From Xiphydria camelus (Eukaryota > Arthropoda > Insecta > Hymenoptera > Xiphydriidae): a DNA stretch of 64,000 nucleotides. Under the pieces are notes generated by a model. It made no database searches. It saw only the letters and a list, made by a program, of their open reading frames with translations, and was not told where the DNA came from. Below are positions 2,629 through 63,281 of the stretch, piece after piece (the first letter of the stretch is position 1; every line of letters starts with the position of its first letter). Both the position numbers and the translations under genes were made by a program. Location: assembly GCA_963678675.1 (NCBI GenBank), contig OY783193.1, forward strand, positions 10,092,822-10,156,821, written 5' to 3'.

Positions 2629-3162
2629 CACTGAGAAAAATGATTTGATCAATCAAACCAAAATCCCGGAGACCATAACCAAACCATTTAATGAAATATA
2701 GATCCTCCATCTGTTTCGTACAACTGATCACTCTTTCTTGTTAGAATAACTAGACATGTAGTTAGAATAACTACACTGAGAAAAATAATAAGGTTAAATG
2801 ACAAAACGAATCTAGTTGCACGTGTTTAGTTATTCTAATCAAAATACAATACTAGTCAGTTGAATCAAATATCGAATTATTCCAACGAAACATTCAGTCA
2901 TTCCAACTAAACGTTTAGTCATTCTAATAAAAAATTAGTCAGTCAAACCAAAAACCCACAGATGGAGGATCCATATTTTACCAAACGGTTTGGTCATCGT
3001 CTCCAGGATTTTGGTTTGATCGATCAAGTTATTTTTCTTAACGTAAACATGTAGTTGGAATAACTTGATATTTGATTAAACTTACTAGTATTTTGATTAG
3101 AATATCTAGATCCCTTTAACCAGTTGCGCTTTGTCATTTTAACCAAGTTATTTGCCTCAGTG
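2629..3162 (+). mobile_element. MITE family A, copy 1 (split by a second A copy)
   Basis: The outer element begins CACTGAGAAAAATG and ends CTCAGTG. Its interior carries the family A landmarks: a segment near 2666 reading CCGGAGACCATAACCAAACC, then the AGATCCTCCATCTGTTT segment and GTTAGAATAACTA repeats. It is interrupted at 2774-3043 by a complete A copy in the opposite orientation. Removing that insert and one TA restores a continuous family sequence of about 262 bp. Flanks are TG and TA. Confidence 0.88.
2774..3043 (-). mobile_element. MITE family A, copy 2 (nested inside copy 1)
   Basis: This is a 270-bp full-length A element in reverse orientation. It begins CACTGAGAAAAATAATAAGG and ends in AAGTTATTTTTCTTAACG, where the last seven bases are a decayed CTCAGTG. 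It is flanked by TA on both sides (2772-2773 and 3044-3045). The outer element reads continuously across the junction when the insert and one TA are removed, so the younger element and its 2-bp duplication are directly visible. Confidence 0.9.
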
Positions 3163-3164
3163 TA

Positions 3165-3831
3165 TACAATGCAAGCTCCATCAAAGAAATTCACGCGCAA
3201 AGAGACCGTCAACATTTTCTTCGCGAATCGCCCAGCGCGGCGTACGAGTCGCGGCTCACGATTTTGAGTAATTCATCGCGCAATTTGAGCCGCGATTCGG
3301 TACGGCGATTACGCCGGGAGACCCGAAGCAAAGGAGAGCGAGAGATCCCGCGCGCGGATGGAAACCTCTCGCCGAAGACCGAAGGCAACGACGGCGGAGG
3401 AAGGCCTCAGCAGCCCCACTTATCATTAGCCGCATCTGCCGAGCAGTCGGGGTAATTGTTTCCTCCGGTTTATAGTTTTATTCCGACTCTCCGCGCGCGA
3501 TGATATCTCGGCTCGTTTTATATTCCTCGGGGCTACCAAACCATCACGGCCGCGTCTCCGGCTCGCAGGTTTTTTGCGCCCCTTCCTCCGGCATCGTCCT
3601 GTCCTCTACAGCGCTGCGGGATACTCGGCATTCACTCAGGCTTCGTTCGACCGTGGGCAAAAACGCCGGGATTCGCTATTCGCGAAATGTAACGCATCAT
3701 TTTCGTCAGTGCGCAAACGGTATCGATTTTTAATTTGTCGGATGGCGTCACGGATATTCGATATCAGTCGTCGAACGTATAACGTCGATTGAGTAAGACT
3801 TATAGTTCCAAGGAGCTCGCGTAAAAAAAAA
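3165..3831. other. Unassigned CpG-rich stretch
   Basis: The stretch is rich in CpG. Open frames at 3264-3455 and 3500-3792 overlap one another in several frames, as expected from low stop density in GC-rich DNA, and carry no recognisable motif. No repeat partner was seen. Confidence 0.45.
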
Positions 3832-4231
3832 GTGTGGCGGAAGTCTGGGAAAAATTGAACCAAAAAAGTACGGCTGAGGATCCGTATCCGAGATTTTCAA
3901 CTAGACGATTTTTTTATATCGGCTGAAAAATAAGATTTACCCGATTTACTTGTACCTTTTTGATTCAATTCTGTTCTACAGGTTCTTCATTATAAAACTA
4001 CAGTGACTTTTTCGATACTAGAATATGGTTTATTAGTAATAATTTAAGAGTTTAATAAAATAATATCATTTTGAAATAATATTAACTGACAGAGCAGACA
4101 TCGATTACAGCATAACTTCGTACAAACAACTGAACTCTAATTGAAGAGCGCATTGTTTACCGGTTGAAAGTTTGGGTTACGATTCGTAGCCATACTTTTT
4201 TGGTTCAACTTTTCCCAGACTTTCGCCATAT
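3832..4231. mobile_element. Foldback element DD, about 400 bp
   Basis: The ends form inverted repeats of about 45 bp. The left arm reads GTGTGGCGGAAGTCTGGGAA and continues through TTGAACCAAAAAAGTACGGC. The right arm is its reverse complement with a few changes, ending CCCAGACTTTCGCCATA. The interior is AT-rich and non-coding. It lies immediately left of the family E copy at 4253. No second copy is in the window and the target duplication is not clear. Confidence 0.65.
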
Positions 4232-4252
4232 CTTAGTCATAATTTTTTAGTA

Positions 4253-4596
4253 CGCGGAGAAAAAGGATTAGTAAAGAATGTTGGGAAAAGCCATGAATTT
4301 GTACAGTTATCCCAGTAACAGGGCTCCTCGAGGTCAAGGATACGTGAAACATTGAAGATTTTGATAAATCACAGCATACTTTTTACAGTTTGTAACAGCA
4401 TAAACATCAGTTTATATGATAACATTTACCAATCTCCCGTTAGTGTGTGTCGCGCGCGCGCGGGTATATATTGTATGGATTTATATTTCAACGAACTGTA
4501 CAAAGAGTACGCTGTGTCTGTTCAAAAATTCCTACATTTGAGGAGCCCTGTTACAGTGACTTACCCTTAAAGTTACCACAATCCCTTTTCTCCGCG
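4253..4596. mobile_element. MITE family E, copy 2 (complete)
   Basis: The termini are CGCGGAGAAAAAGGATTAG and CCCTTTTCTCCGCG, flanked by TA on both sides. The interior holds the family E segments: CAGTTATCCCAGTAACAGG, then CTCCTCGAGG, ACTTTTTACAGTT and the inverted AACTGTACAAAGAGTACGCT. The length of 344 bp agrees with the other copies. It has no coding capacity. Confidence 0.85.
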
Positions 4597-4598
4597 TA

Positions 4599-5703: not shown

Positions 5704-5704
5704 A

Positions 5705-7755: not shown

Positions 7756-8011
7756 CACCGCGAGAAAAGATCCAGTTGAATGTGAACCTAAAATGGAAAC
7801 ATTTATTTACTTCGGATAAATGGGAATTTATTCACATCGAACAAAAGTCGATTTTAATTTGATGAATGTTTTGCATATCTTTTTAATCGAGAACGAACCT
7901 AGTAGAATGCTTATTGAATTCAAATAGACTTTTGTTTGATGTGAATAAATTCTTATTTATCTCAAATACATTTTTCTATGTTCATGTTCAACTAGACCTT
8001 TTCCCTGGGTG
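7756..8011. mobile_element. MITE family L (complete)
   Basis: The termini CACCGCGAGAAAAGATC and CCTTTTCCCTGGGTG are flanked by TA on both sides. Long arms include GAATTTATTCACATCGAAC on the left and its near-perfect reverse complement ending near 7955. The element is 256 bp with no coding frame. Its end sequence is a looser version of the CAC(T/G)GAGAAAA terminus shared by the other families. Confidence 0.8.
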
Positions 8012-8906: not shown

Positions 8907-9651
8907 CACTGAAAAAAATAACTTGAATAAAATGTCAAAAAGCGTCTGATTAAATGAGCTAAGTTATTCTAACCAAAATACTAGTAAGTTGAATCAAATA
9001 TTTAATTATTCTAAACATGTTTAGTTATTCTAACTACATGTCTAGTTATTCTAACCACTCGTGTAGAAATTAGTCAGGGATGGTCTTAGTTAAGAAGGGG
9101 CTCCTATAAGGCTGAACAAGAGTTTCCTTGGTGAAGGCTTCCTTATTATTATCTCAGTAGGGCCCTGTCAGGGCTTTCTAAGGTTTGCTTACTTTTAAAC
9201 TGCAAAGCTTTAGTAAGACAAACTTGTAAGGGTCTCTTCAGGGTTTGATAAGGATGCCTTGTTAAGAAATAAGCAGTCTTTTTTAATAAAAACTTAGCAG
9301 GGCCCTGTCGGGGCATTTCAAAGCTTCCTTATTATAAAACTCTAAGCAACGTGCAATAATTGTACGTAGTTTAATTATTAAGACCTTATTAAGGTTTTTT
9401 ATTGAGGCCCGATTAGTTGCCCATAAAAGGGGCTTTGCACACCAAACTTTTCACTTCCTCATCCGGGCCCGATTATAAAAAGGTCCAAATAATCAAGCTC
9501 TTATTACAATCCTCAGACAATTTCTACACGGGCAGAAAATGGTCAGTTTAACCAAACAGATGGAGCATCCAAATTTCACCAAACGGTTTCGTTATAGTCT
9601 CCAGGATTTTGGTTAGATTGACCAGTAAGCTATTGTATTTTTCTATTGAGG
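8907..9651 (-). mobile_element. MITE family A, copy 5 (split by a 475-bp element)
   Basis: The left end is CACTGAAAAAAATAACTTG after TA. The right half carries reversed family landmarks, including GTCTCCAGGATTTTGGTTAG, and ends with a decayed terminus near 9651 followed by TA. Family sequence is broken between CTAACCA and GAAAATGGTCAG by the element at 9058-9532. Removing that element and one CA restores the family consensus. Confidence 0.85.
9058..9532. mobile_element. 475-bp element nested in A copy 5
   Basis: The termini are CTCGTGTAGAAATTAGTC and GACAATTTCTACACGGG, an inverted repeat of about 18 bp. The dinucleotide CA flanks both sides, and the disrupted A copy supplies the empty-site sequence. 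The interior repeats motifs such as GGGCCCTGTC, GGGCTTT and TTATTAAG several times in both orientations. There is no coding frame. The 2-bp duplication resembles that of the CACTGAG families, but the terminal sequence differs. Confidence 0.82.
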
Positions 9652-11294: not shown

Positions 11295-11735
11295 AAAAAG
11301 TTCTATATATTTTGTATACAATCTATATTAACCATATAAGAACTATATACAGATTTTTGAATATTTGTATATATAATCCATATATAGTTCTTTTATGGTT
11401 AATATAAAAATCGTATACCCGGGGAAAATATTCCATTTGAAATTACGATGACCGGACCATACCGACAATATGAAACATTCTACATAACTTCTCTGAATAA
11501 CTGCTCTGCAGATATATTTTTCTTTTAGATGCTACCATGCAATTTTACGATGCTAGCATCTAGGAAAAAATACGTTCATAGCAATTAGCGACAAAAGTTA
11601 TGCGGAATGTTTCATATTGTCAGCACGGTCCGGCCAAAAGATGCGTAATTTCAAATGAAATTTTTTTTCCGCGTATAATCCGTATATGACCAAAACCACA
11701 TATGGATTATACAGAAAATATATCGAATTTTTTTC
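11295..11735. mobile_element. AT-rich palindromic element K, copy 1 (split)
   Basis: The stretch is rich in ATATAT steps. It has facing motifs around ATTAACCATATAAGAACTAT and its reverse complement near 11380-11405. Right-hand sequence resumes after 11672 with TAATCCGTATATGACC and CCACATATGGATTATAC. The same vocabulary (ATATGGATTATA, TTCTATATGAACCATA) forms element K copy 2 at 63509-63770. The element at 11419-11672 is inserted in it. Confidence 0.6.
11419..11672. mobile_element. MITE with 60-bp inverted ends, nested in K
   Basis: The left arm reads CCCGGGGAAAATATTCC, then ATTTGAAATTACG and ACAATATGAAACATTC. The right arm is the reverse complement with scattered changes and ends TTTTTTTTCCGCG. 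TA flanks both sides. The loop contains a smaller palindrome around GATGCTA...TAGCATC. There is no coding frame. Confidence 0.75.
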
Positions 11736-12999: not shown

Positions 13000-13830
13000 A
13001 GTTCTTGGAATCGATCGCTCGATCATCCTGTCTTGTGTACTTTTTTGTACTGAACGCGAGAAGCATGGTTACTATAGGTTGATATCTCAAAGGAAACATA
13101 AGTTATCGGTGATTTTATGCACGAGGAAATTATTTTTTCCTCCGAAAATCGTCAATATCTCAGTTTCAACAAATCCGTGATTGTTTAAATTAGCGCGAAA
13201 AGAATACATCGGGTAGAATGGTCGAGAATTCGATTTTAAAAATTGAGATTTTCACAAAAAATTTTTGCCAGAGATTTAGCCAGAAATCGACATCCTTGGA
13301 ACAAATTGCTCGATCACCCTATCTGCTATATTTTTGCATGCTATATCGATCTCTCAGTAAGTAATCATTGATTTTATGTACAAGGAAATTATTTTTCCAC
13401 CAAAAATCATCGATACCTTGGCATTTCTTTACAATTTTCCCAATGAATCCATGATCTTCATAATTAACATGAAAAAATACATCTGCGGCGACCCGTCACG
13501 CTACGACGGCCTGCCGCCAGATGGCGCCAACCCTCTCGGCCTTCGACTCACGGCTCTCGGCTCTCGGTAGTGGTCCGACGACGGGCAGTCATTATATAAG
13601 AACGCAACTGCCCGTTTCTCACGGAGGACCATAGAGCGTCTAAGTCAGGAGTCGCGGCCTAGCCTTACTGACGAGTCCACAGGCCGACTCCAGGACGAAA
13701 CGCTCCGCCACGAGATGGCGAACTCACTCTTCGTTCGCTTTACATCTAATGGGATAGTCTGGAGTTCACTCTCAGAAATTTCAATTTTTGCGAAAATGTC
13801 AAGGGGTAGAGATTTCGACAAAAACGTTTG
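13000..13830. repeat. Repeat D, array 1 (with inserted solo LTR)
   Basis: Degenerate units of roughly 280 bp contain recurring phrases: GGTCGAGAATTCGATT, then GATTTTTGCGAAAA, GATTTTATGCACGAGGAAAT, CGAAAATCGTCAATATCTCA and AATCCGTGATTTTC. At least two units are present, and the second is interrupted by the LTR at 13484-13742. Related arrays lie at 21190-21850 and 61640-62240. The units are strongly diverged and have no coding frame. Confidence 0.7.
13484..13742 (+). mobile_element. Solo LTR, copy 1 (259 bp, internally shortened)
   Basis: It begins TGCGGCGACCCGTCACGC and ends TTCGCTTTA, a decayed version of the TTCGCCACA end in the 42518 copy. CATC flanks both sides (13480-13483, 13743-13746). 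A TATATAAG box lies at 13593-13600, followed by a segment reading CTTACTGACGAGTCCACAGG that all three copies share. The interruption falls in the middle of a repeat D unit whose uninterrupted form is seen near 21500. No internal retroelement coding region adjoins it, hence a solo LTR. Confidence 0.82.
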
Positions 13831-13948
13831 ACTAAAACAATTACACGTTTCACGAAAGTTTCATTGAACTACGTTTGCTCTATCAACGTGATACATTCCT
13901 CCAGGGCATCGTGAAATTCTCGGCGTGATCCTCGAAAGGGTTACTTAT

Positions 13949-14077
13949 CACTTGTTCAAAGTAAATTCAAGGCTGGTTCAGCTTGAACTGCCGTTCTTGG
14001 TATAATTCGTGTCACACATAATATACCAAGAACGGCGGTTCAAACTGAACCAGCCTTGAACTTACATTGAACAAGTG
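13949..14077. repeat. Near-perfect palindrome Q1
   Basis: Arms of about 56 bp run CACTTGTTCAA, AAGGCTGGTTCAGCTTGAAC and CGTTCTTGGTATA, with the reverse complement ending GAACAAGTG. The loop is about 17 bp. It is followed by GGGCCTTAA. The same arm sequence recurs singly at 26598-26643, and a related palindrome is at 26386-26561. It would fold into a very stable hairpin and is probably a MITE. Confidence 0.8.
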
Positions 14078-14091
14078 GGCCTTAACCCAAA

Positions 14092-14730: not shown

Positions 14731-15001
14731 CGCTGAGAAAAGTATTTTGGTCCATTTAACCAAAATACTGGAGATGATGATCAAACCGTTTGAAGAAATA
14801 TGGGTCCTCCATGTGTTTGGTCAGACTGACCACTTTTTGGTTAGACTAACTAAACGTTTGGTTGGAATAACTAAATATTTGGTTAGAATAATTTGTTATT
14901 TGGTTCAACTGTGATGAGTATAAAATATATTTTGATCAGAATCACTAAACGTGCTTAATCAGATGCATTTTGTCACTTTAGCCTAATTATTTTCCTCGGT
15001 A
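14731..15001 (+). mobile_element. MITE family A, copy 6
   Basis: The start CGCTGAGAAAAGTATTTTGG follows TA. Family landmarks come in order: CTGGAGATGATGATCAAACC, GTCCTCCATGTGTTTGG and three GGTTAGAATAACTAAA-type repeats. The end is AATTATTTTCCTCGGTA. At 271 bp it is full length. Confidence 0.87.
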
Positions 15002-15645: not shown

Positions 15646-16109
15646 ACCCTGTAATAAAATTTGTATTAAATTTAATACAATTGTGTATAAAGCTTTTATC
15701 CAATACGTGATTATGCTCCATTATGAAATTTATAAGGGCAATTTCATAAGAAAATATATTAATTTTCATAATTACACTGAGAAAACTGTTTATTTGTAGT
15801 TAGTAAATGTTTGTTCGAATATGACGTTTTATTGAATGAGGTAAATATTCGTTAACTATTACGATATTTATTTAGCATAATCAGATCCTCAGAGGCAACC
15901 ATTTCAATAAAATAAACATTTTAATACTATCCATATATTTTCTCGGCTCAACGAAATATTTATTTCGTCGTATTTCAAATAACGTTTATTAACTATTAAT
16001 AAACTGTCTTCTCGATGTATGGAGTACCTATATTAATTTTCATAATCACGTATTGGAAAAAAGCTTTATGTAATTGTACTTATATTAAAAATACAAATTT
16101 TTTTTAGTG
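15646..16109. mobile_element. Foldback element with a B MITE in its loop
   Basis: The left arm (15646-15722) contains TTGTATTAAATTTAATACAA and AAAGCTTTTATCCAATACGT. The right arm (about 16035-16109) contains ACGTATTGGAAAAAAGCTTT and AAAAATACAAATTTTTTT in reverse. The stretch between includes AATTTTCATAAT on both sides of the B copy at 15775-16017. Arm similarity is about 75-80 percent, so this element is older than its insert. Confidence 0.68.
15775..16017 (+). mobile_element. MITE family B, copy 1
   Basis: The termini are CACTGAGAAAACTGTTTATT and AATAAACTGTCTTCTCGATG, flanked by TA on both sides. The interior follows the family: TTTGTTCGAATATGACG, ATTGAATGAGGTAAATATTC, GAGGCAACCATTTCAAT, CGAAATATTTATTTCG. 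It is 243 bp and has no coding frame. Confidence 0.88.
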
Positions 16110-17062: not shown

Positions 17063-17318
17063 GCGGAAAGACGGATACCAGTAAATTTTACTGTATTTAC
17101 AATGAAAGTGATACGTATGAGGGTTTTCGGATGGTCCTACTGTGCTGAAGAACAATTTTTTCCTTAGAAACTAGTAAATTGCAATGTAAACCGTCAAGAT
17201 TTAATATTTTCGAAAAGAAACATTTCTGTATCGCACTGTGAAAACATCTAAAAATCCTCACGTGTTCCACTTTTATTGTAAATACAGTAAAACTTACTCG
17301 CGTGTCGGTTTTTCCGTA
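17063..17318. mobile_element. MITE-like element AA with 55-bp inverted ends
   Basis: The left arm starts GCGGAAAGACGGATACC and runs through TTTTACTGTATTTACAATGA and GATACGTATGAGG. The right arm is the reverse complement with scattered changes and ends CGTGTCGGTTTTTCCGT. The interior is AT-rich and non-coding. No second copy was found in the window. Confidence 0.68.
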
Positions 17319-18015: not shown

Positions 18016-18205
18016 CACCTAGAAAAATAATTAGATTAAAATAACCAAACGCAACTAGTTAAATGCGTTTAGTTACTGCAATCAAAATACTGGTCAGTTG
18101 AACTGATTATTTAGTTATTCTAACTAAAAAGAGGTCAGTTTAACCAAACAGATTGGTCATTGTCTCCAAGATTTTGATTAAATTGACCAAATTTTTTTCT
18201 CAGCT
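18016..18205 (-). mobile_element. MITE family A, copy 7 (internally deleted)
   Basis: It begins CACCTAGAAAAATAATTAG and ends AATTTTTTTCTCAGCT, with TG on both sides. It carries reversed family landmarks (CTGGTCAGTTGAAC, ATTGTCTCCAAGATTTTGAT) but lacks the middle section, giving 190 bp. Confidence 0.83.
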
Positions 18206-18853: not shown

Positions 18854-18991
18854 CACGGAAAAAAAACAGCAATTTTTACTGCTTCATCCAGTAACGCTAA
18901 AACTCGAGCTCATTTTTATAAAATTTGTAGAGAGGAGACATTTCTATTTATTATTGCATGAAGCAGTAAAAATTGTTGCCTTTTTTCCGTG
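18854..18991. mobile_element. MITE family M (complete, 138 bp)
   Basis: The ends CACGGAAAAAAAACAGC and GCCTTTTTTCCGTG sit at the edges of 35-bp arms that include AATTTTTACTGCTTCAT and its reverse complement. AA flanks both sides. This copy helps show that the 2-bp duplication is not restricted to TA. Confidence 0.85.
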
Positions 18992-19740: not shown

Positions 19741-20335
19741 TCTATACATATAAAAAAAACATGTCCTGACTGATTCATTAACGTCGAGCCGAAGCCGTTG
19801 AAGATAGTTATATGAAATTTTTTGACAGTAGGCTTCTTTTGTGACGTAAGCTCCCACTAAGAAAGGATTTTACGAAATTCTTCTGAGGTGGTAAAGTATA
19901 GGGGATGTAAGTTCACTGAGAAAAATGACTTGGTTAATTTAACCAAAATTCTGGAGATGATGGCCAAATCATTTGGTGAAATATGTATCTTCCATCTGTT
20001 TGGTTGAACTGACTTTTTTGATTAGAATAACGAAACGTTTGGTTTGAATAACTAAACATTTGGTTAGAATAACTGAATATTTGGTTTAACTGAGCAGTAT
20101 TTTGGTTAGAATAACTAAGTATTTTTAACTAGATGCGTTTTGCAATCTTAACCTAATAATTTTTGTTCCGTGTTTCTATGAAAACCCGTCATTTTTGAAG
20201 TTTGATCCATGAAAATTGGTATTTGGCCTTTTGGTTAGAAATTAGGAAAGACGTGTCACAGGATTTTTAGAGATTTATAGAGGATGAGATTATTTCGACA
20301 TCTACGCGAACGAAATCGCAGGCGGAAAAAGTTAG
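19741..20335 (+). mobile_element. Helitron-like element, copy 1 (split by an A MITE)
   Basis: It starts TCTATACATATAAAA and ends in a GC-rich segment (CGCGAACGAAATCGCAGGCGG) followed by a TTAG-type terminus. The preceding base is A and the following base is T, as expected for Helitron insertion between A and T. Internal phrases (GACTGATTCATTAACG, TTGTGACGTAAGC, ACGAAATTCTTC) match the pair at 39016-39639. The element at 19914-20172 is inserted in it. It is non-autonomous, with no Rep/helicase frame. Confidence 0.72.
19914..20172 (+). mobile_element. MITE family A, copy 8 (inside Helitron)
   Basis: CACTGAGAAAAATGACTTGG begins the 259-bp copy and TTTTTGTTCCGTG ends it. TT flanks both sides. 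The homologous uninterrupted Helitron sequence near 39200 (GATGTAAGTTTGTATGAAAA) serves as an empty site and agrees with a 2-bp duplication. Confidence 0.9.
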
Positions 20336-21020: not shown

Positions 21021-21181
21021 TTTTTTGTCACTAAGTGTCAAATACGAGGTTGACGATTTCACGCACTGCGCAGGTTATTTCACGCACTGCGCAACTTTTC
21101 ACGAATTGGTGTGTGAAAGATGATTTCACATGCGTCGAGGACGCCTATGAAACCGAGTATTTGACACTGAGTGACAAAAAA
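21021..21181. mobile_element. MITE BB (161 bp, TA-flanked)
   Basis: The termini TTTTTTGTCACTAAGTGTC and GACACTGAGTGACAAAAAA form 28-30 bp inverted repeats with only two or three mismatches, between TA dinucleotides. Inside, TTTCACGCACTGCGCA occurs twice in tandem. It has no coding frame. Confidence 0.8.
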
Positions 21182-21189
21182 TATATCAA

Positions 21190-21850
21190 ACAGGGCGAAC
21201 GAACGATCGGTTCTAAAGATTTTGATTTTTGTGAAAAATTGAGAAAATTTCAGGGAAACCTACTCTTTGACATTTTGTTAAAAATCGAAATTTCTGGAAT
21301 CGGTCGCCTATCCGATGAATTTGTTCACGCTGATTACGAAAAGCATAGTTAGGTATTAGATCGATATTTCGAAGCAAGCATAAGATATCGGTGATTTTAT
21401 GTATGAAAAAATGTTTTTTTTTTCACTGATAATTGTAAATATCTCAATGTGTTCCATTGAGATTTCCTCAATAAACCCGTGATTTTCGAAATCTTCACAA
21501 AAAAGTACATCGAATAGGGCGGTCGAGAGTTCGATTCCAGAAATTTTGATTTTTGCGAAAATATTAAAATTTTTCGAATCGAAGTCTTCACCACCCTATC
21601 TGATGTATTTTTTCGTGCTGATTTCGAAAATCACAGATTTATCGAGGAAGTCTTAGGGAAACATTGAGATACTGATGATTTTTTAAAATGAATAAACAAT
21701 ATTTTTCTGCTTTAAATCACCAATTTTTTCATATTTCTTTTGAGATATGGACCTAATAATCATGACCTTCGTAATCGGCGCGAAGAAATACACAAGACAA
21801 TATACGAGCGATACGACAAGCCTATACGAGCGATCGATTCTACAAATTTT
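21190..21850. repeat. Repeat D, array 2
   Basis: It carries the same recurring phrases as the array at 13000: GTCGAGAGTTCGATTCC, GATTTTTGCGAAAA, GGTGATTTTATGTATGA and CCTCAATAAACCCGTGATT. Around 21495-21545 it shows the intact sequence equivalent to the site of the solo LTR at 13484. Confidence 0.7.
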
Positions 21851-22903: not shown

Positions 22904-23136
22904 CACTGAAAACACGATTTATTTATAGTTAATATACGTATATTCGATTATGGCAAAAGAAACATTTTTTTTCAATAATATCAAATATTCATTATCCGTT
23001 ACTCGATTTCAGTTTGAATGAAAGATACATTCTAATAATTATTCGTAATACATATATTTACTTGACTCAGCGAAATATTCTTATCGCCATAACCAAGTAT
23101 ACATTTATTAACTCCAAATAAACTCTTTTCTCCGTG
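22904..23136 (+). mobile_element. MITE family B, copy 2
   Basis: The ends CACTGAAAACACGATTTATT and AATAAACTCTTTTCTCCGTG are flanked by CA on both sides. The interior matches family B with more divergence than other copies. It is 233 bp. Confidence 0.84.
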
Positions 23137-23779: not shown

Positions 23780-24039
23780 AACTGAGAGAAATAATTACTG
23801 ATGTGCAAAAATGATCAAGCTATAGTTTTCTCGCGTGCGAGAAAATACTTGATAGGCTCGAGTAGTTGTTTTTTTCGCGCAGAAAGAATTTCTTGTTCCA
23901 ACGAAGGTACTCTTCTATTAGAATATATGTATACCTACCTACTCTTGGACCAAGGATCTGCACTTTTAAAAATTTGTAAGATCATATGCCCTTGATTCAA
24001 GACATATTTTTTTGATACTAGCAATTATTTCTCTCAATC
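23780..24039 (-). mobile_element. MITE family S, copy 1
   Basis: It begins with a decayed AACTGAGAGAAATAATTAC and ends GCAATTATTTCTCTCAATC, flanked by TA on both sides. Read in reverse it matches the copy at 30126 closely (TTGCTAGTATCAAAAAAAT, TTGAATCAAGGGCATATG). Confidence 0.82.
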
Positions 24040-24839: not shown

Positions 24840-24940
24840 GGGCGATATGTCAATGAAGTCCTAGCAGAGGTTTTTTGTTTTCATTATCACACGAAGAAAA
24901 TTCAACGGTAATGATTATCAAGCAGAATAGTAAATAGGTA

Positions 24941-25191
24941 CACAGAGAAAAGGAATTAAGTGGATGTACTATAATTACTTGCGGGATTGCAAATAATTAT
25001 TTATTTACGTCAACTAGACCTTTTTTCATATTAATTTGATTTTTCTCCCTTACAATCACATACTATTCCATATGATTGTAAGGAAGAGATTTAACTGATG
25101 TATTAAAAGATTTCATTGATATGAATGAATAATTATTTACGACCCCGCATGTAATTTTCAGTAGATCCGACTAATTCTTTTTCACTTTGTG
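24941..25191. mobile_element. MITE family F, copy 1 (right junction rearranged)
   Basis: The start CACAGAGAAAAGGAATTAAG follows TA. Family F phrases follow: ATTACTTGCGGGATTGCAAA, TTACAATCACATACTATTCC, ATGTAATTTTCAGTAGATCC. The end CTAATTCTTTTTCACTTTGTG runs directly into a family I fragment, so its own 3' flank is lost. Confidence 0.78.
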
Positions 25192-25352
25192 ACGGTTTCG
25201 ACAATATTGTGTCGATTGATCTGCGGAACAGTAATCATCACTATTCGAATGGTAATCATTACTATGTTGCAGATTATTCAACGCGATATTGTCGAAGCCA
25301 TCACCTATTTACTATTCTGGCTGTTAATCATTACTATTCAATTTTCTCCGCG
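25189..25352. mobile_element. MITE family I, copy 1 (left end missing)
   Basis: The body matches the I copy at 34382: GTTTCGACAATATTGTGTCG, CAGTAATCATCACTATTCGA, GCAGATTATTCAACGCGAT. The right end is TACTATTCAATTTTCTCCGCG. The left end is replaced by the F copy, which suggests recombination or an insertion at that point. Confidence 0.75.
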
Positions 25353-27126: not shown

Positions 27127-27536
27127 TTCGACGTATAGCGATATCAATTAAAGTGGATACTGCGGGAGACGGCTCATTCCGACCTGTCCGGTAATTAACC
27201 TTTCCGAGAAAGGTGCGGGATTGCGAGCGCATTCGCAGCCTAGGTTCGCTGAAACATACCGCCCACCTTGTCATTGCGTCCGATGGCGAGATTAGCTCTA
27301 GATTAGCGCGTTATTTAGATTGCGATGATAATGAGCGGTAAGAACCGATATGTAGACGTTCGCTTGACGTGCGACGGAACAGCTAATTTGATTACTAATC
27401 ATTATTTTTCTCGGAAATTCGAGTTTAATTTTGCGAATAACAAATTTCATATAACATGGACGAAATACGATTTCTCTTCTTATCGCACATCTACTATAAA
27501 TATCTTTTTAAATGTAGATAAATTTACATCGAGAAA
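27127..27536. other. Unassigned stretch
   Basis: AT-rich to mixed DNA between two elements, with no coding signal. Confidence 0.45.
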
Positions 27537-27771
27537 AGTATGTGGTAATCACTCCCACAATCCATGTGGTAAAATTGAATTATTGCGGCATATACACGTA
27601 TAACGTTCACACACACTACCATAAATATGTTTATGTTTACCACAAGTATTGTCACATTTGCTATATTTATGGTAAATATTGACATACCTATGGTACTGAA
27701 CGTCATGTGCCATAATAATTAAATCTTATCACATTAATCGTGGTAGTAGTTACCACAAACTTTTATTCGTG
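27537..27771. mobile_element. MITE family N, copy 2
   Basis: The ends CATCGAGAAAAGTATGTGG and CCACAAACTTTTATTCGTG are flanked by TA on both sides. Arms and centre correspond to the copy at 1333 (AAAATTGAATTATTGCG, CACTACCATAAATATG) with clear divergence. Confidence 0.8.
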
Positions 27772-29061: not shown

Positions 29062-29260
29062 TTATAATATCATATGAGGCTAAGCTTATTTGCCAAGAAA
29101 GAAACTTCAATCACTATTATCTCATTATTTATGAACTTTTGGCCAATATCGATATAAGACTTTCTTGAAGATAAAAATGTAATCTTCAAAAAAGTATTAT
29201 ACAAATATGAGCCAAAAGCTCATAGATAGTGAGATAATAGTGCTCGAAGTCTCTTTCTTG
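29062..29260. mobile_element. Element J, copy 1 (left end duplicated)
   Basis: ATATGAGGCTAAGCTTAT occurs twice in tandem at the left. The family body follows: AACTTCAATCACTATTATCT, CGATATAAGACTTT, AAAAATGTAATCTTCAAA, GAGCCAAAAGCTCATAGAT. The right end fades after TCTCTTTCTTG. Copies at 34578 and 63779 share the body. Confidence 0.75.
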
Positions 29261-30125: not shown

Positions 30126-30411
30126 GATTGAGAGAAATAATTGCTAGGGTCAAAAAAATGTTTGTTGAATCAAGAACATATGATCTTAAAAATGTTGTAG
30201 AATACAGATTCTTAAAAAGAATCTTATATATTCTTGATTTAAGAATACCTTCATTTTGTGGAACAAGAAATTCTTCCTGCGCGAAAATTACTCGAGCCTA
30301 TCAAATATTTTCTTGAACGAAGAAAATCATAGCTTGTGCTCCTGGAATTATACCTTGTTTTTGATTGAAGAAAACATTTCTTCGGCACCAGCAATTATTT
30401 CTCTCTCAGTG
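30126..30411 (+). mobile_element. MITE family S, copy 2
   Basis: GATTGAGAGAAATAATTGCT and AGCAATTATTTCTCTCTCAGTG form the ends, flanked by TA on both sides. The 286-bp interior is rich in TTCTTGATT- and AAGAAT-type motifs that face each other. It matches the reversed copy at 23780. Confidence 0.85.
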
Positions 30412-37256: not shown

Positions 37257-37523
37257 CACAGAGAAAAAGAATTATGTAGTTGGATCTACTGAAAATTACT
37301 TGTCTGCTCGCAAGTAATTATTTATTTATTATACATCAATAACATTTTTAATGCAACGATTAAATATCTCGTCCTTACAATCATATGAAATAGTATGCGA
37401 TTGCAAGAAAGACATAATTAATTAACATGGGAAAGATTTAATTGATATAAATAAATAATGAAGTACTTGCGACACCGCAAGTAAATTTTAGTACCTAGAT
37501 CCAACTAATTCTTTTTCTTAGTT
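37257..37523. mobile_element. MITE family F, copy 2 (complete)
   Basis: CACAGAGAAAAAGAATTATG starts and AATTCTTTTTCTTAGTT ends the 267-bp element, with TA on both sides. The arms include GATCTACTGAAAATTACTTG and the inverted ACTTGCGACACCGCAAGTAA, and the centre carries TTACAATCATATGAAATAG facing its complement. Confidence 0.87.
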
Positions 37524-37604: not shown

Positions 37605-37795
37605 CACTGAGAAAAAAAAATTAAAATTTATTCTGTTAGAAGGATAATCTGAGTACGAAAGGTAAAACAGATCAAAAATTATTCTTCCAGGGTATAAAAT
37701 TTAACCTTCCTTAGAATAATTTTCGATCCACTTTACCTTTCGTACTCAGATTATCCTTCTAACAGAATAATTTTTTATCTTTTTTTTTCTCAGTG
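37605..37795. mobile_element. MITE family H, copy 2 (near-perfect palindrome)
   Basis: CACTGAGAAAAAAAAATT to TTTTTTTTCTCAGTG, 191 bp, with CA on both sides. It is almost identical to the copy 2.7 kb upstream, including the GGTATAAAATTTAACC centre. Different flanks (CA here, AA there) show two independent insertions, not one duplicated block. Confidence 0.93.
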
Positions 37796-39015: not shown

Positions 39016-39399
39016 GATATACCTATATGTGTATATATAAAAAAACATATTCTAACTGACTGATTCATCAACGCCGAGTCGAAACCGCTGAAGCTAATTA
39101 CGTTAAATTTGGACAGTAGGTTTCTTTTGTGACGTAAGCAGTCAATAAGAGAGAATTTTACGAAATTCTTCCCCTGAGGTGGTAAAATAGGGGATGTAAG
39201 TTTGTATGAAAATCCGTCACTTTTGAAGATTGATCCATGAAATTTGGTATTTGGCCTTTCGGTTAGAAATTAAGAAATACGTGTTTCAGGAGTTTTGGAA
39301 ATTTATCCCTTCAGAAGGTAGAACAGGAGATGAAGAATCGTATGAGAATTTTTATTTATTTCGAGATCTACGCGGACGAAGTTGCGAGCGGAAAATTAG
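39016..39399 (+). mobile_element. Helitron-like element, copy 2
   Basis: The body matches copy 1 at 19741: GACTGATTCATCAACGCCGA, TTTCTTTTGTGACGTAAGC, GATGTAAGTTTGTATGAAAA, GATCCATGAAATTTGG. The 3' end is CGCGGACGAAGTTGCGAGCGG then a TTAG-type terminus followed by T. The 5' boundary lies in an AT-rich tract and is approximate. It supplies the empty site for the A insertion in copy 1. Confidence 0.72.
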
Positions 39400-40544: not shown

Positions 40545-40762
40545 GATGAAGAGAGAGAAAAGGATTTATTTATTTACATCAATTATATCTGTTTTCATAT
40601 TAATTCAATATTTCTACCTCGGAATCGCATACTAGGTATTCCACATGATTGTAAGGAAGATATCAAATTCATATATTAAAAGATTTCATTGATATAAATA
40701 AATAATTACTTGCGACCCCGCAAGTAATTTTCAGTAGATGCAACTAATTATTTTTCTCTGTG
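40545..40762. mobile_element. MITE family F, copy 3 (left end degraded)
   Basis: The right part is clear: GATATAAATAAATAATTACT, TTGCGACCCCGCAAGTAA and AACTAATTATTTTTCTCTGTG followed by TA. The left side has only GAGAGAAAAGG in place of the family terminus, within AG-rich sequence. Confidence 0.72.
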
Positions 40763-42271: not shown

Positions 42272-42436
42272 ATAGAAATTGCGTCAATCGTAAGTGAAAT
42301 ACTTCAATCCTTACTTATATACTTTTTCTACCCCGAGAAAACAGTTTAATAGAAATTGCGTCAATCGTAAATGAAACGCTTCACAATCCTTATACAATAT
42401 CCTTATCCTTATTTTCTACCCCGAGAAAACAGTTTA
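42272..42436. repeat. Tandem duplication covering a B MITE left end
   Basis: Two units of about 77 and 88 bp begin ATAGAAATTGCGTCAATCGT and end CCCGAGAAAACAGTTTA. The second unit runs into the intact B copy at 42419. The first therefore carries the flank plus the first bases of the MITE, showing the duplication happened after the MITE inserted. Confidence 0.8.
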
Positions 42437-43076
42437 TTTGTAGTTAATAAATATTTGTTTGAATATGGCGGAATAGGCATTTTATTAGGTCAAAGAAATA
42501 CTCGTTAACTATTACAATGTGGCGAAAAGATTTGGTCGCCATCTAATCGGCAGAGCGTTTCATCCCGGAGTTGGCCTGTGGACTCGTCAGTAAGACTAGG
42601 CCGACTCCTGCCTTAGACGCTCTGTGGTTCTCCGTGAGAGGTGGGAAGTAAAGGCTGGGTCTCACTAGGACACTGATGGAGGCCACAAGTTGCCTTCGAC
42701 TGGACAGTAAAATTTGCTCCCTGGGGAAACAAAATTTCTTACTGGCCTAATTGATTGGAAGCGGCAACTTTTAAGCCTTTACGGTCTTATATAGTAACTT
42801 GCCGTTGTTGGACCACTAACGAGAAGCCGAGAACCGTGGGCCGGTAGCCGCGGAGTCGAGGGCCGAGAGGTTCGGCGCCATCTGGCGGCCGGCCGGTGTA
42901 GCGTGACGGGTCGCCACAACAATATATATTATACATAATTAAGCCCCTTTAAGGCAATCATTTGAATGAAATAAACATTTTAACAATAAACATGTATTTT
43001 CTTATCCTTACGAAATATTTATTTCGCCCTATTTAAAATTACATTTATTAATTATTAAGTAATCGTTCTTCCGATG
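42419..43076 (+). mobile_element. MITE family B, copy 5 (split by solo LTR)
   Basis: CCCCGAGAAAACAGTTTATT follows TA, and TTAAGTAATCGTTCTTCCGATG precedes TA. Family sequence breaks at TTAACTATTACAA and resumes at TATATATTATACATAATT, around the LTR at 42518-42918. Without the LTR and one ACAA the element is about 253 bp. Confidence 0.88.
42518..42918 (-). mobile_element. Solo LTR, copy 2 (401 bp, complete)
   Basis: It begins TGTGGCGA and ends TCGCCACA, with ACAA duplicated on both sides (42514-42517, 42919-42922). Read in reverse it starts TGTGGCGACCCGTCACGC, has a TATATAAG box (complement at about 42787-42793) and then the CTTACTGACGAGTCCACAGG block. TG...CA ends, the TATA box and the 4-bp duplication fit a Gypsy-type LTR. 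No internal region remains. Confidence 0.88.
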
Positions 43077-44543: not shown

Positions 44544-44784
44544 CACTGAGAAGAATAATTAGATTAAAATAACAAAATGTATCTAACTCTAAACACGTTT
44601 AATTATTCTAACCAAAATACTGGTCAGTTGAACTAAATATCAAGTTATTTCAACCAAACATTTAGTCGTTCTAACCAAAAAGTGGTCAGTTTAACTAAAC
44701 AGATAGCGGATTCATATTTGACCAAACGGTTAGGTCATCGTCTCCAGGATTTTGATTAAATTGACCAAGTTTCTTTTCTCTGTG
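44544..44784 (-). mobile_element. MITE family A, copy 9
   Basis: CACTGAGAAGAATAATTAG to TTTCTTTTCTCTGTG, 241 bp, TA on both sides. The reversed landmarks are present: CTGGTCAGTTGAAC, AAGTGGTCAGTTTAAC, CATCGTCTCCAGGATTTTGA. Confidence 0.89.
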
Positions 44785-45545: not shown

Positions 45546-45860
45546 TTCATCTTCATCTTCTTCTTCTTCTTCATCTTCATCTTCGTCTTCGTCTTCGTCT
45601 TCGTCTTCGTCTTCGTCTTCGTCTTCGTCTTCGTCTTCGTCTTCGTCTTCGTCTTCGTCTTCGTCTTCGTCTTCGTCTTCGTCTTCGTCTTCGTCTTCGT
45701 CTTCGTCTTCGTCTTCGTCTTCGTCTTCGTCTTCGTCTTCGTCTTCGTCTTCGTCTTCGTCTTCGTCTTCGTCTTCGTCTTCGTCTTCGTCTTCGTCTTC
45801 GTCTTCGTCTTCGTCTTCGTCTTCGTCTTCGTCTTCGTCTTCGTCTTCGTCTTCGTCTTC
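45546..45860. repeat. (TCTTCG)n hexanucleotide array, about 47 pure units
   Basis: From 45580 to 45860 the hexamer TCTTCG repeats about 47 times without a visible error. Before it (45546-45579) there is a TTC/ATC-rich imperfect run from which it probably grew. No frame on either strand contains a stop, so it reads as poly-Ser, Leu-Arg, Glu-Asp, Lys-Thr or poly-Arg. These frames are artefacts of the repeat unless an exon is shown here. Confidence 0.95.
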
Positions 45861-50142: not shown

Positions 50143-50392
50143 CACGGAGAAAAATAAATTGTAGCGTTTTTGCAAAGTTTGTGGTAAATTTCGAAACCAG
50201 ATCAATTGTATAACTACAATTTACTAAAATTATAATTATACAATTTTAGAACGAAATTGTAGTTAAACTTGTAGAAGTTGCAAGAGTTGCTGTAATTTTT
50301 ACTGAAATTGTGGTCATTGTAACAATACATTGTCTTTGTCTCGAAATTTACCAACAACTCTGTAAAAATGCTACGATTAATTTTTTTCCGTA
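50143..50392. mobile_element. MITE family G, copy 2
   Basis: CACGGAGAAAAATAAATTG to AATTTTTTTCCGTA, 250 bp, CG on both sides. The arms contain AAGTTTGTGGTAAATTTCGA and TCGAAATTTACCAACAAC. The centre TAGAAGTTGCAAGAGTTGC matches copy 1 at 33519. Confidence 0.85.
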
Positions 50393-51480: not shown

Positions 51481-51800
51481 CACGGAGAAAAAGGATTAGT
51501 ATATAATCACGAGAAAACCAATGGATTTTTACAGTTATATTAGTAACAGGGCTCCTCGAGATGAAATGTTGAAGATTTAATAGACCATAGCGTACTTTTT
51601 ACAGTTCGTAACAGCATAAACATCAGTTTGTACGGTGAAAAATGTACAAATTTCCCGTTAATACATGTCGAGTGTTTACGGGTTTATACTGCAACGAACT
51701 GTAAAAAGTACGCTGTGTCTATTAAGAAATTCAATATTTCACCTCGAGGAGTCCTGTTACTGGGATTCATTAGAAAAATTACTAATCCTTTTTCTCATTT
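51481..51800. mobile_element. MITE family E, copy 4
   Basis: CACGGAGAAAAAGGATTAG to TTACTAATCCTTTTTCTCATTT. It carries CGTACTTTTTACAGTTCG facing AACTGTAAAAAGTACGCTG, and CTCCTCGAG facing CTCGAGGAGTCC. The right terminus is decayed, so the last few bases are approximate. Confidence 0.84.
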
Positions 51801-53682: not shown

Positions 53683-53968
53683 TTATTAATCTTTCACATC
53701 TCATCGAATGTACGTTGTTTCAGTATTTCTTTAAAGTTTCGATATTTTTCATTTAAATTAAAGATACGATTTTTCCTTACAACAAAGAATTACTCTTTAT
53801 TCAAAGGACCAGTCGAAAATTGAAGTATTTTCCTTGGAAAAATCGCGATGTGATAAGTCCCGAAAACCATTCTCTGATATTCTCGCAGTTTTTTTCAGAA
53901 AAATTTGCAGACAAATATTATTTTCGTGAGACGGATATCGGCCAATTCCTCCAGTTTCGGTGTTGCAG
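53683..53968. other. AT-rich stretch upstream of the exon candidate
   Basis: AT-rich, intron-like sequence. Several AG sites precede the exon candidate, notably CTCCAG at 53949-53954 and GTTGCAG ending at 53968. Confidence 0.5.
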
Positions 53969-54120
53969 ATTTCTGGCAACACCTGGTCATGCCTAATACG
54001 TCGCTCTGCATGGGATCGGACTATCGCATCACTCTCCTCTGCAACACGTATTCGACGAACCAGAAGTACTTCAGCAGACCGATGACCGCTCTCGTGGACA
54101 CGATACTCGGACCTCAAAAG
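53969..54120 (+). CDS. Candidate internal exon of an unrecognised protein
   Basis: A 152-bp segment follows the acceptor-like GTGTTGCAG and precedes AAAAG|GTAATC. After two leading bases it reads 50 codons with no stop, starting FWQHLVMPNTSLCMG, continuing SDYRITLLCNTYSTNQ and ending in TALVDTILGPQK. It ends exactly on a codon boundary at the donor, and the frame hits a stop four codons into the presumed intron. By my count about 37 of 50 third positions are G or C, although the surroundings are AT-rich, and the residue mix (Trp, Tyr, Cys, Phe, Asn) is protein-like. I do not recognise the family. A different acceptor (CTCCAG at 53949-53954) would add five residues. No partner exon was identified in the window, so neighbouring exons would lie far away. 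Confidence 0.55.
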
Positions 54121-55395
54121 GTAATCGTCTCGTGATAAAATAAAACACAAGAAATAAAAAAGTAGTTGCGGAAAATAATTAAATAATCGACCAATTATGC
54201 ATCGCCACTGCTTAGCGAAGTATCAATTTTATGAAAAGCGTGAATTCATTAAAATTCTCATGAAATTGTACAAAAAGAGAATTTTTCAGGATTTAATTAT
54301 GAAGTCAAATATGAGAAATAGAAAATTTTAATAGTTCTGACAAATAATGAAATAATCGACCAACGCATCGCCGCGCTACGCGACACTCTTCAACGACGCG
54401 TTTCTAGTACCACGCGGCGTTCGTGGTAATCGACCATGAGAGAGCACGCCGTGTGCGAAAGAGTGCACGGCGGCTGCACCGGGCGCGTAAAGTGCCCGCA
54501 TTACCGCGAGCGCATAAGATAATTGACCGAGCAGGCCGGCACACCCCGCCGTCAATTAACCCGATACTTTTCATCGGGCGCCCGTCAATCTGCCGACGGT
54601 TTTTCCGCGAAACCGCGCGTCCCTTTTCCCCGCGCGTTCCCTCGCAATTTCCGCGCTCGAATCCTACTCTCGCCTCGTCTCGCCCGCGCGGCAGTTAAGC
54701 GCGACTTAACGACTCGGACGCGCCTGATGAGGATAAAGCGGATAAAAGTGACGGCCTCGGCGAATGGGATCGCGGCTGCGATTCGCAGGGATGCATGTTT
54801 TAGCGCTATTCGTGTTACGTGTCCCGGTCGCAGACGGAATTGCGCGCCGAAGAAGCGCGGACCTTCAGAGCGATGATAAATCGTCGCGATGAAAAAGTCC
54901 GAGAGTGATGCGTCGCGTTTGAGGGAGAGGCGAGGGAGAGAAAAGGGAAAGGAAAAAAGCGCACAGAGCCGCGCATCGGGAACAACCAGGGCAAACGTGG
55001 CCTACCTGCATGTATCCGTGGTACATGCAGTCGTATCCTCTCTTCGTCATCTCTAGTAATTATATTCCACTCGCGCGGAGTCGCGATACCGCGTGCAACG
55101 TAGTGCGGCACAACATGCACTATAGGTACCCACGCACGACACGGGTATAACGAATGTTTCAATTAGCATTAATAACGCCAATCGCACGCATCAAGCCGCG
55201 ATATGCGCCGGATTTATCAACGGAATACGGGTGCAACGATAGCGCCGTCGTTTCAGGTATTCCGTAATTATTATACATGTATACAATTTCGATTCTGGTT
55301 CGGCGGGTTGATTTTCTTTGATTCGTGGAGAAACAATTTCCTTCTTCTCTTTTTCAATCTCCTATTTGTCACGTGATTAAACCTGGTCATGGCTG
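54121..55395. other. Intron-like then CpG-rich stretch
   Basis: The first 250 bp are AT-rich and contain AATAATCGACCAATTATGC near 54182, echoed as AATAATCGACCAACGC near 54351. About 54360-55260 is CpG-rich with overlapping open frames on both strands and no recognisable domain. Confidence 0.45.
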
Positions 55396-55573
55396 CACTG
55401 GGAAAAAATAATTAGATTAAAGTGACAAAATATGTCTAGTTAAACATATTTAGTTATTCTAACCAAAAATTGGTCAGTCAAACCAAACAGATGGAGGGTC
55501 CATGTTTCACTAAACGGTTTGGTCCATTATCTCCAGGATTTTTGTTATCTTGATCAAGTTATTTTTCTCAGTG
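55396..55573 (-). mobile_element. MITE family A, copy 10 (internally deleted)
   Basis: CACTGGGAAAAAATAATTAG to AAGTTATTTTTCTCAGTG, 178 bp, TG on both sides. It keeps the CAAACAGATGGAGGGTCC and TTATCTCCAGGATTTTTG landmarks in reverse and lacks the central repeats. Confidence 0.87.
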
Positions 55574-59239: not shown

Positions 59240-59449
59240 CACTGAGAAAAATAACTTGGTGAATCTAACCAAAATCCTGGAGACGATGACCAAATCGTTT
59301 GGTGAAATATGGATCCTCTCCGTTTGTTTGGTTAGACTGACCACTTTTCGGTTATAATGACTAAATATTTTGGTCAGAATAACTAAGCGTGTTTAATTAG
59401 ATGCATTTTGTCATTTTAACCTAATTATTTTTCTCAGCGTATGTACAGA
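59240..59449 (+). mobile_element. MITE family A, copy 12
   Basis: CACTGAGAAAAATAACTTGG to AATTATTTTTCTCAGCG, 210 bp, with CCTGGAGACGATGACCAAAT and GGTGAAATATGGATCC. Flanks are CG on the left and TA on the right, so the duplication is not preserved or the end is shifted. Confidence 0.86.
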
Positions 59450-59581
59450 ATGATTCTCAGAATTGAGGTCGTAGAACGGTAGTCTATGTGGCGTTTTGCA
59501 GACTATAGGTTGTACACTATTGGTCCGAGGATGCTGTACATACAATTGGCTGCGACGACGTGCAGTGTCCGGTAAACCCTT

Positions 59582-59827
59582 CACAGAGAAAAAGAATTAG
59601 TTGAGTCTAAGTTTAGTTCTTGCGGTCGCAAGAAATTATTTATTTATATCAATGACATTTTTTAATGCATCAATTTGACATCTCTTCTTTACAATCACGT
59701 GGAATAGTATGTGATTACAAGGAATGAATATCAAATTAATATGGATAAAGATCGAGTTGATGTAAATAAATAATTACTTGAGACACCGTAAATTTTTAGT
59801 AGTGCTAATTAATTATTTTTCTCTGTG
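59582..59827. mobile_element. MITE family F, copy 4 (complete)
   Basis: CACAGAGAAAAAGAATTAGT to AATTAATTATTTTTCTCTGTG, 246 bp, TT on both sides. The arms and centre follow the copy at 37257 (TTACAATCACGTGGAATAG, TTGATGTAAATAAATAATT). Confidence 0.88.
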
Positions 59828-59828
59828 T

Positions 59829-61018: not shown

Positions 61019-61274
61019 TGGATGTAGTTATAGAACATGGAATCAAGCGACATGCACTTGATGCTGAGAAAAACCCATTTTAAGTTGTTATTCCTATTCT
61101 TAAAAATTATAGCTTTTGAAAAATATTAATCTTACAGATTTTGGATTGAATAAGAGGCTTCGTTTATTGCCATGAAAATATTGTTTATTAAAGTTACTCT
61201 CTGATAGATGGAGAAGTATTGGCGATTTTAAATTTGGCGCTTGGTTCCATATGTTCTATAACTATTATACATCC
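61019..61274. mobile_element. MITE-like element Y
   Basis: GGATGTAGTTATAGAACATG and the following GAATCAAGCG are matched in reverse by CGCTTGGTTCC and ATGTTCTATAACTATTATACATCC. It is 256 bp and AT-rich inside, with no second copy. Confidence 0.65.
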
Positions 61275-61279
61275 ATTAG

Positions 61280-61476
61280 TGTCCTAGTTCCTGACCAGTA
61301 AGCCCGATTCCTAACCACTTATATATTTATTTTTATTAATGAAAATGTAATATTGGTGTGCCTTCAATTAAAAGTAATATTTATCTAAATAATAAAGGAT
61401 AATAGATATATTCATATTCACAGTTTACGATGAGTTAATAAAGAGATATTTGAGGATTTGGTTAGGAATTGGGACA
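61280..61476. mobile_element. MITE-like element Z
   Basis: TGTCCTAGTTCCTGACCA and TGGTTAGGAATTGGGACA (plus flanking bases) form imperfect inverted ends of about 18 bp around 160 bp of AT-rich DNA. TTCCTAACCA recurs inside the left end. It lies directly after element Y. Confidence 0.6.
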
Positions 61477-61639
61477 TTCACTTTATTCCGATCCTATCCT
61501 CGCGAAAGGACATAGCGAGAACTTTGAATTTAGTCGATGACCGCGTGAAAGGGGTAGATTATTTTTATCGATATACTCTGGTGAGAAATTGAGTCTATTA
61601 AAAATAAAATTATTTAATTCGACCAAATGCTGTGATCAT

Positions 61640-62240
61640 CGACTATCGCACCGACCGAGTAAGACATCGATAATGTTATATAATACGAAAAATATATTCT
61701 TTCACGGAAAATTATAAATGTCTCGGTGTTCCCTTGAGATTTCCTCGATCAATCCATGATTTTCAGAATCAGCACGAAAGAATATAATGGATAAGTTGGT
61801 CGAGAATTCAATTCCAGAAATTTCGATTTTTACGAAAATTTGAAAAATTGTCAAGGGAATAAAATTAATTATTATATTAATTAATAATATTCATAGAAAT
61901 TTTAATTTCTCATTATTTAATAACTAATTGTAATTAATTTATTTTAATTCATGAGAAAATAAAAATTAAATTTTCCCTTGACATTTTGCAAAAAAAATAG
62001 AATCTCTGGAATCGTTCACTCAACCACGCTATCTTACGTATTTTTGTTGCGCTGATTACGAAAAGCACGGTTATCAGGGGGATGCCTCAAGGGAAATATA
62101 AGACGTCGGTAATTTTATGCACGAAATAATTATTTGTTCACAGAAAATTAATAATGTATTGTTTCTTTCTTGAGATTTCCTCAATAAATCTGCGATTTTT
62201 AAAATCAGCGCAAAAAATAGATCGAACATGGTACCTGGTT
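61640..62240. repeat. Repeat D, array 3
   Basis: It has the same phrases as arrays 1 and 2: GGTCGAGAATTCAATTCC, GATTTTTACGAAAA, GTAATTTTATGCACGAAATA, TTGAGATTTCCTCAATAAAT. Two units are separated by an AT-rich segment (61860-61975) containing TTAATTAATAAT-type inverted motifs. Confidence 0.68.
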
Positions 62241-63023
62241 CAAAGTTTGATTTTCGGCAAAATACACACGTCGAAGGATAATTCCTACCAGCAACAGCAT
62301 TATCCGATTCGTAATTAACTACCCTCAGAAATTCTTCCTTTCCCCCCCTGTCTCTTTCTTTCTCTTTTGACATCGATCTCCTCCCTCTGTAAGTATCCAC
62401 TTATTTCGGATAGCAAGGTACGGACTAGAACGAACTAACGACGCAAAGCGATGTGTAGTTATCGGCAAAACGGCGCGTACGCGTATATATGTGGGTAGAT
62501 ATGCGCGACGGACGGGAGCAGCGGTAATGCAAGGATCGATCGTGCAAATATAGGTAGCCCGCGGTGGTGCGCGTAATACCTGGCGCGACAGGATGAAATT
62601 ACGCTCGCGCGCGTATAGCGCCGACTTTCGCGGGACAAAAAAAATGTTTGTATTTTCTCGATTTATATCCGCGGGGAGTTCGAAGCGGAGTTCTTGCGTC
62701 ATGTTATTTATGCACGCGCGGTAGAATGAGAAATGCCGCGGTGCCACCCCGACCCACCTGGGGGCGGAATCGCCTCCGCCCTTGCCGCCTTCGGGCGGAT
62801 GGGGGCCGCACGTCGTCGTTGTATACGCGGCGACTCGTCGTCGACCTCGCTGTGCGATGTCCTTGTATAACTACTCGGCGTCGAGTCGATGTGGCGGTTC
62901 CTACACGGCTCGTCCTCGAATAGCGTGTCGATAAACGCCCCGCAAAGAATAGATGCGATATGGTACCAATGTTGGCATCGCGAGAGACCAGGAATCAGAG
63001 AGAAGTTAATTTCTATCATTTTG
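62241..63023. other. Unassigned stretch, CpG-rich core
   Basis: About 62420-62960 is CpG-rich, with no supported coding frame or repeat. Confidence 0.45.
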
Positions 63024-63281
63024 TACCGAGAAAACAGTTTATTTGTAGTTAATGTATATTTGTTCGAATATGGCGAAGTAAATATTGTATTGGTTCAAGC
63101 AAATATTCGTTAATTTTTGCGATATTTATTTGGTACAATTTGATCTTTTGGGGCAAAAATTTCAACGAAATAAATATTTTAATAATTAACATATATTTTC
63201 TTGTAGCGAAATATTTATTTTGCCGTATTTGAAGTTACATTTGTCAACTATTTATTATAATAATAAAGTGTTTTCTCGGTG
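63024..63281 (+). mobile_element. MITE family B, copy 6
   Basis: TACCGAGAAAACAGTTTATT to AATAAAGTGTTTTCTCGGTG, 258 bp, TG on both sides. The interior follows the family. All six B copies in the window lie in the same orientation. Confidence 0.88.

Follow-up and report, generated by a model that had tools for sequence, protein, structure and literature searches.

Short inverted-repeat elements with common CAC..GTG ends and 2-bp, pyrimidine-purine-biased target duplications in a Xiphydria camelus window: probable CACTA/CMC-type MITEs

Many short repeats in one stretch of the genome of the hymenopteran Xiphydria camelus end alike and differ inside, which raises the question of what kind of transposase moved them and how it chose its targets. 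The window analysed here is a stretch of 64,000 nucleotides (assembly GCA_963678675.1, contig OY783193.1, positions 10,092,822 to 10,156,821 of the forward strand), in which an earlier note, made from the sequence alone, had described numerous families of miniature inverted-repeat transposable elements (MITEs) with one terminal motif and a duplication of 2 base pairs (bp) of free target sequence. We find that these elements have CAC..GTG ends and create 2-bp duplications, and that the duplicated dinucleotide is not free but biased to pyrimidine-purine (YR) steps, TA first.

The common motif, CACNGAGAAAA, has 62 matches in the window at up to one mismatch, compared with 4.64 ± 2.40 in shuffles (largest count 11), and none of 100 shuffles attained 62. 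Across 14 family representatives, the information content is 1.1-1.8 bits at end positions 1-3 and 5-11 and 0.28 at position 4, and inward of base 11 no column reaches 0.6 bits apart from position 20 (0.84); this end conservation is partly due to selection, as the representatives were mostly recovered via the motif. Most of their 28 ends read CAC at positions 1-3 (C 25, A 23, C 25, with motif selection affecting most), and these are the CAC..GTG termini of CACTA/CMC MITEs. The families diverge from base 12 inward, and BLAST (E<1e-5) divided 37 entries into 14 components (seven of 10, 6, 6, 2, 2, 2 and 2 entries, and seven singletons), with two families falling into one component solely through a nested element; both the common terminal motif and the differing interiors of the earlier note are thereby borne out. 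The elements are 138-517 bp long, have terminal inverted repeats (TIRs) and occur in several copies, with families of up to 10 entries, and Pfam detected no transposase or other domain within them, so that they are short, non-coding MITEs. Together with fragments, and with weak pairs included, the listed elements account for 16% of the window (10,492 bases).

Motif matches that face each other (at most two mismatches per end and three in total, 100-600 bp apart) form 53 overlapping combinations, compared with 0-6 in 20 Markov simulations, and inverted repeats extending past the motif are common among them. Non-overlapping pairs were picked by TIR score and mismatches, blind to the flanks, giving 29 pairs, among which the weak pairs 1806-2078 (flanks AT/CG, without TIR beyond the motif), 40551-40762 and 42419-42723 were kept. 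Identical 2-bp flanks were found in 18 of the 29, compared with a mean of 6.9 and a maximum of 15 in 20,000 trials in which the flanks were re-paired. A stricter motif gave 12/15 pairs with matching flanks (re-paired mean 3.3, max 11), a looser motif with TIR gave 12/23 (mean 4.9, max 13), and ranking pairs solely by mismatches gave 12/27. The flanks matched in at most six pairs of the 29-pair set when compared at other offsets, and in none of the 29 at 3, 4, 5 or more bases, although the zero at three bases carries little weight because a third match beyond a 2-bp duplication needs a homopolymer. Transib, hAT and piggyBac, for which Table 1 of PMC9033116 gives duplications of 5 bp, 8 bp and TTAA, were rejected on the lack of any match at 3-5 bases. 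The observed 2-bp duplication is that of CACTA/CMC MITEs and falls within the 2-5 bp of the CMCT clade.

Could the matching flanks be a product of chance, favoured by the frequency of the motif and of YR flanks? Re-pairing does produce 6.9 agreements among 29, and where a TIR beyond the motif was required (score of at least 22) the excess is less extreme than in the 29-pair set, with 11/15 matching against a re-paired mean of 4.2 and maximum of 12, and 3 of 20,000 trials reaching 11. Yet no re-pairing in 20,000 reached 18/29, and the control with shuffled motifs (300 were made, of which one was the motif itself and was excluded) yielded a mean of 1.4 pairs over the remaining 299, at most 8 pairs and 2 matches. 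Empty sites exist as well, and the one pair found in a bacterial contig, which we take as chance, lacks both a duplication and any TIR extending past the motif. Chance is thus already contradicted by the results, and we give it practically no credence.

That empty-site evidence came from joining the flanks of 34 element entries, minus one copy of the duplication, and searching them against the window. Junction-spanning empty sites were obtained for five of them (three strong, two weak), and in all five alignments the occupied site carries two extra bases at the junction. For the element at 19914-20172, the strong empty site lies at 39122-39282 (88% over 163 bp, target TT). With strong empty-site support, the MITE at 24941-25189 is nested inside another at 24890-25352; its empty sites show the target TG and are provided by the relative at 34382-34577 and by the opposite TIR of the outer element. 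The element at 34382-34577 has in turn two strong empty sites with target TA, at 29067-29162 (84%, 96 bp) and 63772-63869 (80%, 98 bp). Weak ones were found for 31410-31619 (29177-29238, 76% over 62 bp) and for 11418-11673, the latter within a simple tandem repeat near 63623-63720. At 24941, 34382 and 31410 the two flanks differ by one transition and the empty sites suggest the original base, and part of the unmatched flanks can therefore be put down to later mutation. Taken with the 18 matching pairs, these sites uphold the 2-bp duplication proposed earlier; the 17 flanks quoted at the time were correct on both sides in every case.

The target was a different matter. The 18 matching duplications are TA (8), TG (3), CA (2), AA (2), TT (2) and CG (1), so a fixed TA target is rejected, as the earlier note had argued, by the 10 that are not TA; one family, moreover, uses non-TA targets in both of its 97% identical copies, at 34879-35071 (AA) and 37605-37795 (CA). 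YR steps make up 14 of the 18, compared with 24.3% of the dinucleotides of the window (P 2.8e-6), and are present at 23/29 left flanks, 21/29 right flanks and, irrespective of pairing, 20/27 exact termini. Over 21 target sites, three of which belong to elements outside the 29 pairs, the information is 0.82 bits in each duplicated base and at most 0.21 elsewhere. The target should therefore be described as YR-biased, TA first, in place of the free sequence originally supposed.

The elements on which these results rest are as follows.

34879-35071: MITE with long near-perfect TIRs (TIR score 95, 0+0 motif mismatches), duplication AA; 97% identical to 37605-37795
37605-37795: MITE of the same family as 34879, duplication CA
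2774-3162: MITE of the largest family, duplication TA
8907-9159: MITE of the largest family, flanks TA/GG unmatched, 3' end uncertain
14731-15001: MITE of the largest family, flanks TA/TC unmatched
18016-18205: MITE of the largest family, duplication TG
19914-20172: MITE of the largest family, duplication TT, empty site 39122-39282
44544-44784: MITE of the largest family, duplication TA
55396-55573: MITE of the largest family, duplication TG
59240-59439: MITE of the largest family, flanks CG/TA unmatched
15775-16017: MITE of the second family, duplication TA
22904-23136: MITE of the second family, duplication CA
32735-32985: MITE of the second family, duplication TA
63024-63281: MITE of the second family, duplication TG
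24890-25352: outer MITE, related to 34382-34577, split by the MITE 24941-25189; outer duplication CA
24941-25189: MITE nested in 24890-25352, flanks TA/TG, empty site TG
37257-37523: MITE, relative of 24941 and 59582, duplication TA
59582-59827: MITE, relative of 24941 and 37257, duplication TT
34382-34577: MITE, flanks TG/TA, empty sites TA
31410-31619: MITE, flanks TA/CA, weak empty site 29177-29238
11418-11673: MITE with diverged motif, duplication TA, weak empty site
4253-4596: MITE with CGCGGAG ends, duplication TA
51481-51800: relative of 4253, flanks TG/AC unmatched, 3' end diverged
1333-1532: MITE, flanks TG/TA unmatched
27527-27771: MITE, relative of 1333, duplication TA
18854-18991: MITE, duplication AA
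28461-28977: MITE, duplication TA
50143-50392: MITE, relative of 33519-33752, duplication CG
7756-8011: MITE with diverged motif, duplication TA
30126-30411: MITE with diverged 5' end, duplication TA; relative at 23816-24039

Some of these loci have further structure. A 72-bp tandem array carries the 3' end of the 50143 element twice more, at 50557 and 50629, each copy being followed by CG as at 50392, and these copies are likely a tandem duplication of the end plus its flank. At 2629-3162, ends of the largest family are interleaved, 2629 having its best partner near 3043 and 2774 its partner at 3162; the arrangement looks like a complete copy with a partial one next to it or lying across it. 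Members of the largest family contain tandem repeats of a 21-bp unit of the TTTGGTTAGAATAACTAAACA type, e.g. at 14836-14905 and 20017-20086, and within the window the core of this unit is confined to that family; such subterminal repeats are reminiscent of CACTA elements. A dispersed 205-bp repeat with inverted-repeat structure (29081-29285, 34578-34782 and 63788-63992; 78-85% identical) has the MITE 34382-34577 adjoining the edge of one copy. When inverted repeats were located without the motif, 88 were recovered, and the 25 longest include some outside the listed elements (21450-21663, 17080-17298, 29086-29268 and 13938-14088), so that not all palindromic repeats here belong to the set.

Which enzyme moved the elements was addressed through Pfam, searched with 30 translated stretches of the window (five overlapping pieces, each in six frames, with stops written as X). 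Three families matched at E<=0.05, namely SOG2, Med23 and DUF1771; the SOG2 match falls in a poly-serine array, that to DUF1771 has an E-value of 0.046, and the poly-serine and Asp/Glu frames gave no Pfam match when searched alone. As no transposase was seen, the class assignment rests on the ends and the duplication length. A CMC-type transposase is the most likely on these features, because published CACTA/CMC MITEs combine CAC..GTG ends with 2-bp duplications and the CMCT clade is similar. The autonomous partner expected of CACTA/CMC MITEs would encode a DDE transposase bearing C(2)C and H(3-4)H motifs. We consider it probable that the elements are non-autonomous, cut-and-paste CACTA/CMC-type MITEs, moved by one or more CMC-type DDE transposases encoded elsewhere.

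Several observations weigh against this assignment. The Pfam search, which had no positive control, found no transposase in the window; the fungal EnSpm elements described in PMC12730594 make 3-bp duplications; and the flanks are unmatched in 11 of the 29 pairs, of which three are explained by one transition relative to an empty site and eight are unexplained. TA is also the commonest duplication (8/18), as in Tc1/mariner, and an enzyme of the Tc1/mariner or pogo-like type with only a loose requirement for TA might be invoked; we think this quite unlikely, given that Tc1/mariner duplicates TA only and more than half of the duplications here are something else, including both copies of the 97% identical pair and the TT at one strong empty site. 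Still more doubtful is a PHIS-type enzyme (ISL2EU, PHISTA) or another superfamily with 2-bp duplications: PHIS elements, which are Harbinger relatives, are described as duplicating 0, 2 or 3 bp, but the 2-bp lineage described there duplicates TA only (PMC12730594), and CAC ends are those of CACTA-type elements (PMC6004678).

Within the CMC group, we infer that one or a few related transposases served all families, but separate related masters for different families would fit equally well. Had each family its own master, the common end would reflect shared ancestry or chemistry and not one enzyme, and this is a serious contender, although we lean slightly against it: position 4 is identical at the two ends of an element in 17/29 pairs, compared with 8.1 after re-pairing, and the families differ from base 12, whereas positions 1-3 and 5-11 are kept in the 14 (mostly motif-selected) representatives.

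Under a CMC-type mechanism, a DDE transposase encoded elsewhere would recognize inverted repeats with the common core CACNGAGAAAA, excise the element and join it to the target with a 2-bp stagger between the strands, mainly at YR steps and most often at TA, and repair of the resulting gaps would leave the 2-bp duplication. The interiors of the families may differ because little beyond the ends is needed. A bolder, and rather unlikely, extension is that CACNGAGAAAA and a YR step are nearly sufficient for one CMC transposase lineage, such that unrelated DNA repeatedly became MITEs by gaining these ends, and that the free fourth base, which tends to match at both ends, would mark enzyme sub-lineages.

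Relatives were sought in collections that were bacterial, archaeal or viral, with no insect genomes as such. Motif scans of viral contigs gave no match, and scanning bacterial and archaeal genome contigs gave one, in a metagenome-assembled contig labelled Verrucomicrobiales. It was rejected as a relative and is taken as chance because BLAST detects nothing in the window that resembles the surrounding sequence, and the pair shows neither a duplication nor a long TIR. In a literature text search the literal CACTGAGAAAA occurred in 10 papers, of which none concerned transposons by its title, and we do not claim the motif to be unpublished.

As for the rest of the window, GC content ranges over 40-48% in 4-kb steps, and CG makes up 7.2% of dinucleotides, about 1.5 times expectation, such an excess being a hymenopteran trait. 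Its other features are as follows.

53968-54122, + strand: MED23-like exon (Pfam Med23, E 2.5e-13; three PDB MED23 sequences, E ~1e-6)
45546-45860: TTCGTC hexanucleotide array, 52.5 copies, 99% matches
13075-13721, 21176-21663 and 61685-62215: further dispersed repeat family, with a long palindrome at 21450-21663 whose arms have no CAC ends

How do these MITEs compare with known systems? CACTA-derived MITEs have reportedly been described in the ant Camponotus floridanus, to judge by the title of Jiang et al. 2016, which PMC6004678 cites. The window is densely populated with such elements and supplies its own controls in the form of a nested insertion, empty sites and two copies that are 97% identical; this sample establishes the 2-bp length of the duplication and reveals the pyrimidine-purine preference. 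CACNGAGAAAA ends that face each other between matching YR dinucleotides provide a search key for locating the transposase and counting the MITE families per enzyme. The CMCT clade of PMC12730594 comprises EnSpm/CACTA, Mirage, Chapaev, Transib, Plavaka, ESTA and Lanisha, and is described as having mostly CA..TG ends and 2-5 bp duplications, with ESTA duplicating TA; the window MITEs resemble it in ends and duplication length, the clade itself being defined by transposases. The CACTA MITEs of another insect, Helicoverpa, have 2-4 bp duplications and TIRs of 15-46 bp, the only characters by which they were classed as CACTA (PMC9033116). Closest in description are CMC-NA_1 and CMC-NA_2, MITEs of wasps and polydnaviruses, which together with ENS1_Cis have CAC..GTG ends and 2-bp duplications and were filed by their authors as CACTA in the CMC group, the authors reporting no autonomous partner for CMC-NA_1 and CMC-NA_2 (PMC6004678). 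The resemblance to CACTA/CMC ends noted earlier thus holds: like these two, the window MITEs are short, non-coding and bounded by TIRs with CAC..GTG ends and a 2-bp duplication, the likeness being one of description (PMC6004678). A pattern of many MITE families with one end and a 2-bp duplication is of a kind already reported for wasp CACTA-type mini-transposons, and we read the MITEs of this window as new members.

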